Shown here piece by piece: positions 60,858 to 64,000 of a stretch of 64,000 nt of DNA. Made by a program: the position numbers and the translations under genes. Under the pieces are notes generated by a model, which did not search any database, had not been told where the DNA came from, and saw nothing but the letters and a program-made list of their open reading frames with translations. Each line of letters begins with the position of its first letter. Position 1 is the first letter of the stretch. This DNA is from Candidatus Hydrogenedentota bacterium (GTDB lineage: Bacteria; Hydrogenedentota; Hydrogenedentia; Hydrogenedentales; JAEUWI01): positions 124,001 through 188,000 of the forward strand of contig JAHBVV010000010.1 in NCBI GenBank assembly GCA_019637335.1, in the 5' to 3' direction.

Positions 60858-62246
60858 TCAGGGGGCGAAAAGGTGCTGGAGGATCGCGTCCCGCACCGCT
60901 GTGCATGGGAGCGTCTCGTCCCCGTGCCCCCGCTCGCCCGAGGTGAGGAGCAGTGGCTTCAGGGCGTCGTCGAGCGCGTGCCGGCCATGAGATCCCCGCA
61001 CCAGCGCCGTGTCGAGTGGGATCAGGTCCATAAGCGTGCGGAAGCCGAGCTTCTTCTTGAGCAGGCGCCACGCGATGTGGGCCGGGGGCAGCTTCAGGGC
61101 GGGATTCAGAAAGAGTTCGACGGGATCGTAGCCCGGCTTCCGGTGGATGTCCACGCAGCGCGCGAAATCGGGCGCGCGCGCGTCGTCCAGCCAGTAGTAA
61201 TAGCTGAACCATCGGCGGGGCTCGCTGAGGAGCACCAAATCCCCGGACCGTGGGTGATCCAGCTCCAGCGCCGCCTGCTCCGCGCGATCCAGCACCCGCT
61301 CCACCCCCGGAACGCCGCGAAGAAGCTCGGCGTAGTAGCCGATGCGCCCCGGATCCTTCACATACACGTGGGCGCACTGGTGATCCGCCACGGCGAAGGC
61401 GTCGCTCGCGCCGGCGTCCAGCAGTTCGAGCCCTTCCTCCACGCGGAGGCTGATCGCGCCCGCTTCGCGCAGGATGCGGTTGGGGTGGACCGCGTCGTCG
61501 ACCGGCATAATGCCGTACTCGCTGGCGATCATCGGGCGCACCCCGGCCCCCTCGAAGTAATCCAGCAGTTGCCCCACCACGGCGTCAAGCTCGGCGACGT
61601 ATTTCGGGATGTCCGGGTGTTCCGGGCCGAGTTTCTGGAGGCAATAATCGAGGTGGGGGAGATAGACCAGGGTCAGGCCGGGCCGGTGTTTCCGGTGCGC
61701 GTAAACCGTCGCGTCCGCGATCCACTGCGTGGACTTAATCGACGACGCCGGTCCCCAGAAATTGAAGAGCGGAAACGTGTCCAGTTCCGCCTGCAATTCG
61801 TCGCGCAGGTCCTGCGGGTGCGAATAGCAGTCCGGAATCTTGCGCCCGTCCGCCTTGTAGATCGGGCGCGGCGTGACGGAGAAATCAACGGAGGAGTACA
61901 TGTTGTACCACCAGAACATGTTCAGCGTGGTGCACGACGGATCCCGCTCGCGCGCGATCTCCCAGACCTTCGGGCGCTCCACGAGGTGGTTGGACTGCTT
62001 CCAGAACTGCACCTCCGCCATCTCGCGGTTGTACCACCCGTTCCCCACAATCCCGTGCTCGCGCGGGGGCGCGCCGGTGAGCATGGAAGACTGCACCGTC
62101 GTGGTGACGGCGGGGAAGCTCGGCTCCAGGTACTGCCGGCGCCCGCCGCGGAGAAACGCCTGGATGCGTGGGCAAGCCTCGGAAATCAGGGATTCGGTCA
62201 GCCCGACCGCGAGCAGCACGGCGGTGGGATGGTGCGACGTGGTCAT
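60858..62246 (-). CDS. eboF: EboF-like alkaline-phosphatase-fold phosphodiesterase
   Basis: A 462-residue protein of the nucleotide pyrophosphatase/alkaline phosphatase superfamily. The nucleophile region is PSFPAVTTTVQSSMLTG (Thr nucleophile), followed by GIVGNGWYNRE and LVYLPHLDYCLQ. The first metal-ligand position, usually DG, reads GLTES here; as I recall this is common in EboF. It overlaps eboC by four bases (ATGA), so the pair is translationally coupled. In cyanobacterial and Pseudomonas clusters EboF is encoded with EboA-E; its substrate is unknown. The start is ATG 62246, as the longer open frame runs into eboC. Confidence 0.82.
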   Translation of the reverse strand: MTTSHHPTAVLLAVGLTESLISEACPRIQAFLRGGRRQYLEPSFPAVTTTVQSSMLTGAPPREHGIVGNGWYNREMAEVQFWKQSNHLVERPKVWEIARERDPSCTTLNMFWWYNMYSSVDFSVTPRPIYKADGRKIPDCYSHPQDLRDELQAELDTFPLFNFWGPASSIKSTQWIADATVYAHRKHRPGLTLVYLPHLDYCLQKLGPEHPDIPKYVAELDAVVGQLLDYFEGAGVRPMIASEYGIMPVDDAVHPNRILREAGAISLRVEEGLELLDAGASDAFAVADHQCAHVYVKDPGRIGYYAELLRGVPGVERVLDRAEQAALELDHPRSGDLVLLSEPRRWFSYYYWLDDARAPDFARCVDIHRKPGYDPVELFLNPALKLPPAHIAWRLLKKKLGFRTLMDLIPLDTALVRGSHGRHALDDALKPLLLTSGERGHGDETLPCTAVRDAILQHLFAP

Positions 62247-63118
62247 GTGCCGGCAATCCTCCGGTGGCCCCAGACCGTCACCGCGAAGCACGCGAGCGCG
62301 GCCAGCGACAGCCCGGGGAAGGGGGTAAGGGTCAGAAAAAAGGCGTCCAGCAGGGAGATGCCCGCGAGCCACCCGAGCACGGCGGGCACGACTTTCGGCG
62401 GGGCCTGCCAGATGAAGCGCGCGGACCGGATGAGCCAGAGCAACAGCAGCGGGCCCACAACCATGGTCCAGCGCCAATCGCCGCCGCCCGTGAACAGGAG
62501 CACGGTGAAAGGGAGAAAGATCATGGCCACCGCAAGCCAGCGGCGGAAGCCAAGCCGGCCCGCCGCTTCTTTCTGCGCGACAACGGTCAGCCCGATGATG
62601 TAGAGAGCGATCAAGCCGCCGAAAAGCGCCACCCCGGCGATGGAATCCAGCCGCGATCCGGCGGCGATTGCGGCCGCCAGCGCATAGACCAGCGCGCGGC
62701 ACAGGCCCATGAACACGAGGGAGGCGTTCCAGCGCTTGTGGAGCACATCGTAGGCCACAATGGCGCCGATCAGCGCCAGGGCGACGTAGCGGGCCCCGGG
62801 CGCAAAGACGAGCGTCAGAATGAGGCCCGATCCGAAGCACATGAACGTGAAGCGCGTGACCTCGCGAACGGAAAGCGCGCCGGACGGAATGGGGCGTCCG
62901 GGCCGCTCGCTTGCGTCGATGTGGCGGTCGAGCAGGTCGTTCAGGGCCATGCCGCCGATATAGAAAAGCGCCGAGATCACCGCCGCCAGCAGGGCCTTGG
63001 GCCACTCTAGCGCGCCACCGCCCGCCGCAAGCGCAAATCCTACAAGCACATTGGAAAACACCGTGGGCAGGTTGGAAATGCGCGAAAGTTGCAGATACGC
63101 CTTGAGCTTTGACGGCAT
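62243..63118 (-). CDS. eboC: EboC-like UbiA-family prenyltransferase
   Basis: A 291-residue membrane prenyltransferase with about nine helices. The first aspartate motif, NDLLDRHIDASERPGRP, carries the N-x3-D-x3-D pattern that binds prenyl diphosphate with magnesium. A second-loop motif is seen at YDVLHKRW. The N-terminus SRISNLPTVFSNVLVGFALA is characteristic of the EboC branch. It attaches a prenyl group to an acceptor whose identity is not known for this cluster; in scytonemin-producing cyanobacteria EboC is needed for export of the scytonemin monomer. A MITE-like element lies 50 bases upstream. Confidence 0.85.
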   Translation of the reverse strand: MPSKLKAYLQLSRISNLPTVFSNVLVGFALAAGGGALEWPKALLAAVISALFYIGGMALNDLLDRHIDASERPGRPIPSGALSVREVTRFTFMCFGSGLILTLVFAPGARYVALALIGAIVAYDVLHKRWNASLVFMGLCRALVYALAAAIAAGSRLDSIAGVALFGGLIALYIIGLTVVAQKEAAGRLGFRRWLAVAMIFLPFTVLLFTGGGDWRWTMVVGPLLLLWLIRSARFIWQAPPKVVPAVLGWLAGISLLDAFFLTLTPFPGLSLAALACFAVTVWGHRRIAGT

Positions 63119-63169
63119 TCAGATTCTTTCTATGAATGAGTGAGGTGGAATAACATTAGATACTAGGTT

Positions 63170-63391
63170 TTTAGCCACAAAGCGCACAAAGAACACAAAG
63201 AAAAAGGGAGCGGAAGCGCTGCAAGCCTTCGTTCCGTTGAGGAGTCACCCGTGAAAGGTGGCATCCCAGAGCATCCTCACGCAACGGCGAAAAAGGGTTC
63301 GATAGGTTTTTTGAAAGCGCCCTGCAATGCATCGGCAATATCAAAATGACACCCGATACTTTTTGTGCTCTTTGTGTACTTTGTGGCTAAA
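63170..63391. mobile_element. MITE-like element with 30-base terminal inverted repeats
   Basis: TTTAGCCACAAAGCGCACAA begins the left terminal repeat (63170-63199). Its inverse at 63362-63391 matches at 27 of 30 positions, with ends TTTAGCCACAAAG and CTTTGTGGCTAAA. The 222-base unit has no gene. Inside, CCGTTG (63234-63239) and CAACGG (63282-63287) form a further stem. No clear target duplication was seen. It separates eboE from eboC. Confidence 0.72.
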
Positions 63392-63417
63392 GAATAGGCT
63401 TCCGCGCCGCTTCGGTT

Positions 63418-64000
63418 CTACGTTCTACTGCCGTCCGACGCATCCAGCACCCACTGCATCTCCCGCGCGATGCCCTCCGCGAGGTCGTCCACCCGAAGCG
63501 ATTCCGGCAGCACGTTCCAGGCATAGGTCTCCACCTCAAAATGGCGGCAGTCCGACAGCGCGCCGATGCTCTGCAGGCACTCGCGGACTTCCTGCTGCGT
63601 CGCGCGCAAATACCCGAACGTATCCAGAAAAAGCGGCACGTGGAAATGCGTCCGCAGCGTGTATTCCATCAGCGGCCGATCCGCGATGGCGTCCAGCGCG
63701 ATCGGCAAGTCCTCGTAGAGCCGCGTCTCCTCGCCATCCACCGCGTGGCGGACCATCGTCTGGTGCAGGTAGCGCGGCTCCTGGAAGGTGAACAGCTGAT
63801 CGAGCGCCAGCGATCCATCGTTGACGTCCAGCCGCGTAAAATCCGCCTCCACCGCCGACGAGAGCTGGACCTTGCCGACACGCAATCCCGCCGACCGGTA
63901 GGCCAGGAGCACATCCGCCTGCGACTCGCCCATCACCGCCGCATGGCAGACGTCGTGGCAGACCCGAAGATAGCGCGCGAAATGCTCCTCGTTGCCGCGT
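63418..64000 (-). CDS. eboE: EboE-like TIM-barrel (xylose isomerase-type) protein, 5' truncated
   Basis: The right edge of the window cuts the N-terminal part of this gene. The visible 194 residues are the C-terminal half of a xylose isomerase-like TIM barrel. They include FARYLRVCHDVCHAAVMGES, where the C-x-D-x-CH cluster is typical of EboE metal sites, then AYRSAGLRVGKVQLSSAVEA and, later, TYRTHFH-like strand residues (LRTHFHVPLFLDTFGYL). It lies 299 bases upstream of eboC on the same strand, with a mobile element in between. In other clusters the remaining ebo genes follow upstream, here beyond the window. Confidence 0.8.
   Translation of the reverse strand, partial: RGNEEHFARYLRVCHDVCHAAVMGESQADVLLAYRSAGLRVGKVQLSSAVEADFTRLDVNDGSLALDQLFTFQEPRYLHQTMVRHAVDGEETRLYEDLPIALDAIADRPLMEYTLRTHFHVPLFLDTFGYLRATQQEVRECLQSIGALSDCRHFEVETYAWNVLPESLRVDDLAEGIAREMQWVLDASDGSRT

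Follow-up and report, generated by a model that had tools for sequence, protein, structure and literature searches.

The ebo Clusters Described So Far

The system to which the locus reported here belongs is already known: it is the eboG variant of the ebo cluster described by Yurchenko et al. (2016, PMC5133447), who recorded eboG-type groups in Deinococcales, Acidobacteria, Herpetosiphon and Thermithiobacillus, and who described eboG, in the Deinococcus group, as a replacement of eboA. The eboA-type operon is found in Cyanobacteria, Bacteroidota and the plastids of eustigmatophytes, and related operons, of the SCO3242 type, occur in Streptomyces. None of the ebo clusters has a known product, in line with what an earlier note on the present DNA had said. 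A function has been proposed from experiments on Nostoc, where every ebo mutant tested retains the monomer of scytonemin inside the cytoplasm (PMC6282210). Homologues of the prenyltransferase EboC have been found to farnesylate quinoline acids in vitro (PMC9235831).

The window, i.e., the whole stretch of 64,000 nucleotides that was analysed, spans positions 124001-188000 of a contig of 192,493 bp (C10) in a Hydrogenedentota genome (G000). At its right end lie three adjacent genes on the minus strand, in the order eboE, eboC, eboF (60858-64000). Our slightly favoured reading is that they form one half, E-C-F, of an eboG-type locus (D-G-B ... E-C-F) in Hydrogenedentota and that this locus works through a prenyl-cyclitol carrier. 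The two parts of this reading are not equally firm, membership in the eboG-type family being close to certain and the mechanism as stated an even call, with an order of enzymatic steps that we infer.

The Three Genes in the Window

The earlier note had recognized genes for a TIM-barrel protein, a UbiA prenyltransferase and an alkaline-phosphatase-fold protein, and these are indeed eboE, eboC and eboF, the products of the last two belonging to the Pfam families PF01040 and PF01663. All three reading frames are intact, with only the 3′ half of eboE inside the window; contig C10 continues beyond it, and the complete gene begins with an ATG at L002:5605 (Table 1). There is a 4-bp overlap between eboC and eboF. 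The spacer between eboE and eboC measures 299 bp, so co-transcription of eboE with eboC and eboF is uncertain. This spacer holds a 30-nt inverted repeat, TTTAGCCACAAAGCGCACAAAGAACACAAA, whose arms bracket 162 nt and are the only two copies in the window; it resembles a small element of mobile or dispersed type. Just upstream of eboE there is also a tandem array of a 45-bp unit (L002:5718-5899, ~64718-64899 in window numbering), the 29-bp core of which, GGACAGCCGGGACGGCTATCCTACATTTG, has 126 copies in the genome with at most 2 mismatches (the reversed control gave 0) and was not found inside the window. The neighbours of eboF in the window encode a GAF-GGDEF protein, an FG-GAP repeat protein, a Na/H antiporter and an acyl-CoA dehydrogenase, none of which is an ebo gene.

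Table 1. Positions of the ebo features in window numbering.
Feature	Position	Strand	Remarks
eboE, 3′ half	63418..64000	-	193 codons in window; full gene 395 aa, to ~64605
CHDVCH motif of EboE	63943..63960	-	read from translation
30-nt inverted repeat in the eboE-eboC spacer	63170..63391	.	arms 63170-63199 and 63362-63391
eboC, UbiA-superfamily prenyltransferase	62243..63118	-	291 aa, ~8 hydrophobic segments, NDxxDxxxD; PF01040 75.7 bits
eboF, alkaline-phosphatase-fold protein	60858..62246	-	462 aa; PF01663 190.7 bits

Against NF035939 (TIM_EboE), the complete EboE protein reaches 436 bits, 186 bits over the cut-off of 250. The CHDVCH site pointed out in the earlier note lies where it was said to be, and the pattern C-H-D-x-C-H is invariant across 43 EboE sequences. 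By sequence, EboE has no match in the PDB. The AlphaFold2 model of a close relative's EboE (pLDDT 94) is a TIM barrel whose fold matches there are UlaE, IolI, xylose isomerase and AsbF; the match extends to the xylose-isomerase-like superfamily in general, so a specific reaction cannot be named from it. In the phylogeny that the earlier note had proposed as a check, the window EboE grouped with EboE proteins, apart from ordinary sugar isomerases, and EboC among EboC proteins, apart from the genome's three other UbiA proteins; the two, like EboB of the same genome (see below), are each placed beside other Hydrogenedentota. EboC also keeps its prenyl-diphosphate motif (Table 1).

Could a sugar isomerase, a UbiA enzyme and a phosphodiesterase, from unrelated families, simply have come to lie side by side? 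The observation in favour is that EboC reaches 107 bits against the curated model NF035940 and so stays under its cut-off of 250. The same cut-off is also missed by EboC from annotated ebo clusters of Deinococcus, Azospirillum, Ketogulonicigenium and Mycetohabitans, and it therefore covers one subtype only. With this, with the score of EboE and with a gene order that is conserved in several phyla, adjacency by chance was rejected and has a negligible probability.

The Second Half of the Cluster

The earlier note had called the cluster partial, and had advised looking for eboA, eboB and eboD to the right. Only E-C-F is present in the window; the partial look arises because the window and the contig ends cut the cluster. 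A search of the genome for sugar-phosphate cyclases returned 2 genes. One, on contig C1, is clearly aroB; the other, distinct from it and close to the left end of C11, is eboD (476 bits to NF004852). In the same direction as eboD, C11 carries a gene of ~100 codons (eboG) and eboB, the two overlapping by 4 bp; EboB is a TatD-like protein (PF01026, 36.1 bits, cut-off 27). Of the three genes named in the note, eboD and eboB are thus present, eboA is absent from the genome and the unrelated eboG stands in its place. The genome holds six intact ebo genes, as two half-clusters on two contig ends.

The half-clusters are oriented correctly for the left end of C11 to follow the right end of C10. The two ends share no exact overlap of at least 15 bases, and the join in this genome is therefore one that we infer. 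Relatives show both the compact and the split arrangement. One (G028) has an uninterrupted D-G-B-E-C-F on a single contig, and another, of the same genus (G002), has D-G-B, ~3 kb and then E-C-F, both halves being on one 13-kb contig. In G003, eboB is followed on the same contig, at a distance of 2.7 kb, by a Gfo/Idh oxidoreductase gene, and the orthologue of this gene in G000 and in G001 is immediately upstream of eboE. The contig ends, the orientation and the flanking Gfo/Idh gene agree with a single locus into which cargo has been inserted between eboB and eboE. G003 keeps D-G-B and eboE was not found in it, which means either that the assembly is broken or that the halves can be lost separately.

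Defence genes seem to insert between eboB and eboE in this genus: the interval contains a Gabija pair in G001 (L013:1367-5331; GajA 744 bits, GajB 707 bits) and a candidate defence gene, PDC-S13, in G000 (L009:1980-2870). G001 also has a second, partial copy of eboB elsewhere (C17:103843-104103), which covers residues 181-267 only.

With just three genes in the window, and with many planctomycete loci in which eboE lacks neighbours (in Pirellulales, it is mostly alone), E-C-F might be taken for a decayed or stand-alone remnant with some other role. Against this stand the other three genes in the same genome, the intact state of all the reading frames and the relatives that keep all six; moreover, in 6 of 9 Pirellulales-type genomes with a lone eboE, a diverged eboG lies directly before eboB elsewhere in the genome. 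The remnant explanation is largely refuted by these observations and is very improbable.

Distribution of the eboG-Type Operon

A scan for EboE in about 85,000 species gave 332 relatives. The best 80 of these 332 were mostly from Planctomycetota, and among them were 18 loci with all six genes on one contig in the order D-G-B-E-C-F, plus several more that are cut by contig ends. Altogether, about two dozen loci among these best 80 have the eboG operon, in Planctomycetota, Acidobacteriota and Omnitrophota; in the Omnitrophota locus, eboD was not detected. The same D-G-B-E-C-F order is found on Deinococcus plasmids. Of the 68 Hydrogenedentota genomes, 4 encode EboE and 5 encode a full-length EboB; one further genome has a fragment of EboB, located at the edge of a contig.

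The host was described in the earlier note as planctomycete-like, which is not correct, since it belongs to Hydrogenedentota, as does its relative G002, a public Candidatus Hydrogenedentota genome, and the finding was said to broaden the range of the cluster. Planctomycete ebo genes have been known since 2016, as unclustered genes (PMC5133447), and to that extent the range is not new; the eboG operon in Planctomycetota refines the statement made then. As far as the cited papers show, what is new is the occurrence of ebo in Hydrogenedentota and the operon form in Planctomycetota.

Compared with the described eboG-type operon, the host has the same genes, with eboG for eboA, in the order of the Deinococcus plasmids, but it is a member of Hydrogenedentota, and cargo genes interrupt its locus after eboB and before eboE. 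Its EboB, EboC, EboD, EboE and EboF are homologous to those of the eboA-type operon, from which it differs in having no gene for EboA, in its gene order and in its EboB, which a split with full support sets apart.

EboG, EboA and Their Pairing with EboB

The EboA model NF035938, which does detect EboA in other genomes, found no match anywhere in the host genome, and an EboA profile found nothing in the related loci. (A side result from a distant genome, L095 in G165:C178, is an EboA-domain match interrupted by one internal TGA, which may be a pseudogene or a recoded stop.) The small protein of ~100 residues is EboG, judging by its position and by its homology to the protein encoded between eboD and eboB in Deinococcus rather than by the published eboG sequences. 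It is predicted to fold into three helices (pLDDT 79, core helices >90), and neither by sequence nor by fold does it match the PDB. That EboG might be a shortened EboA was considered and rejected, a profile-profile comparison being negative (probability 0.6%); Yurchenko et al. (2016, PMC5133447) likewise obtained a negative result for these two proteins.

The position of eboG is constant: it adjoins eboB in 27 of the 27 operon loci measured, and in every locus read, including those in which the remaining genes are arranged differently, either EboA or EboG is encoded directly before EboB. In the EboB tree, the A-type and G-type sequences are separated by a split with 100/100 support, the host EboB being on the eboG side; the same split was present in the authors' own sequence set in PMC5133447. 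For other members of the cluster, a grouping of all A-type clusters is rejected (EboE, p 0.0005; EboF, p 0.005), the EboE test being weaker when Streptomyces is left out (p 0.026). Because EboA or EboG always precedes EboB, and because the A/G split follows EboB, the simplest reading of these comparisons is that EboA and EboG would be alternative partners of EboB.

The Altered Metal Site of EboF

EboF shares its fold, its sequence family and the position of its threonine nucleophile with the nucleotide pyrophosphatases/phosphodiesterases (NPPs) and phosphonoacetate hydrolase. Its register was set by alignment to the structures of phosphonoacetate hydrolase (PhnA) and of the Xanthomonas NPP. 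The pattern so defined (V14, T48, then DYxLQ, SEYGI and SHGR) is kept in 34 EboF proteins from nine phyla, and it is identical in the eboA-type operon. The aligned positions include D54, H214, D257 and H258 of the Xac NPP, which we take to be metal ligands. In EboF, these four are changed, D to V, H to Q, D to E and H to Y, and V, Q, E and Y stand in all 34 proteins, the first altered position being V or A and never D. All 34 retain the NPP residues T90, D210 and H363. On the presumed ligand identities, EboF therefore lacks the complete two-metal ligand set of the NPPs. In PMC5133447, EboF is predicted to be a phosphate-ester hydrolase; a mention of its active site was not found in that paper.

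A Proposed Mechanism

EboD has as its best PDB match 4p53, which is ValA/EEVS (PMC4426668). The SCO3242-type cluster of Streptomyces is one operon that, like the host, encodes EboE, EboB, EboF and a prenyltransferase resembling EboC, but it differs in possessing an inositol-3-phosphate synthase, EboA and an extra sugar isomerase, and in the absence of EboD. In 4 of the 4 intact Streptomyces clusters, the gene for the inositol-3-phosphate synthase comes first in the operon, and the annotation of the stretch lists no eboD. That the same role is filled by two unrelated enzymes, both forming cyclitols, favours a cyclitol core, and we regard this as good circumstantial evidence for a cyclitol product. 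Four Streptomyces plasmids (L101, L129, L130 and L131) carry such ebo-like operons with inositol-3-phosphate synthase and the SCO3242 prenyltransferase, and in two of them a gene of the ScyD/ScyE family lies just upstream.

In the proposed scheme, EboD would form a cyclitol, which would be modified by EboE, as a metal-dependent TIM barrel, and by EboB, which has a metallohydrolase fold, keeps the metal set H-x-H, E, H, H, D and would have EboG as its dedicated partner. The membrane enzyme EboC would prenylate the cyclitol, and EboF may bind or process a phosphorylated intermediate via its changed metal site. The resulting prenyl-cyclitol lipid would help to bring small metabolites into the periplasm, in the way that ebo serves the scytonemin monomer of Nostoc; a need for ebo in the export of a small metabolite is known from the Nostoc mutants only. 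What counts against this scheme is that the in vitro substrates of the EboC homologues are quinoline acids, not cyclitols.

The same enzymes could instead make and secrete a prenylated cyclitol as a secondary metabolite with a protective or antimicrobial role, the scytonemin effect in Nostoc being indirect. This was the proposal of Yurchenko et al. (2016, PMC5133447), and it draws on the combination of a sugar-phosphate cyclase with a UbiA enzyme, on the plasmid-borne copies and on the patchy distribution. No such product has been detected, and it is the same scytonemin monomer that is found in the cytoplasm of every Nostoc ebo mutant tested (PMC6282210), which favours a carrier or cofactor role. 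The secreted metabolite is thus a possible explanation on the doubtful side, and we favour the prenyl-cyclitol lipid that assists translocation.

A further, tentative proposal, to which we give not quite even chances, concerns the family as a whole. EboF may be a conserved, repurposed family and not a two-metal phosphohydrolase of the usual kind; EboA and EboG may be unrelated and interchangeable partners of EboB, with A-B and G-B as modules that travel through otherwise shared ebo clusters; and the cyclitol-forming step may be swappable between EboD and inositol-3-phosphate synthase.

Implications

An ordinary phosphodiesterase role for EboF should not be taken for granted, and EboA and EboG can now be tested as partners of EboB. 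The ebo genes occur from plastids to soil bacteria, and the compact six-gene order that is common to Hydrogenedentota, Planctomycetota, Acidobacteriota and Deinococcus offers a minimal set for reconstitution.
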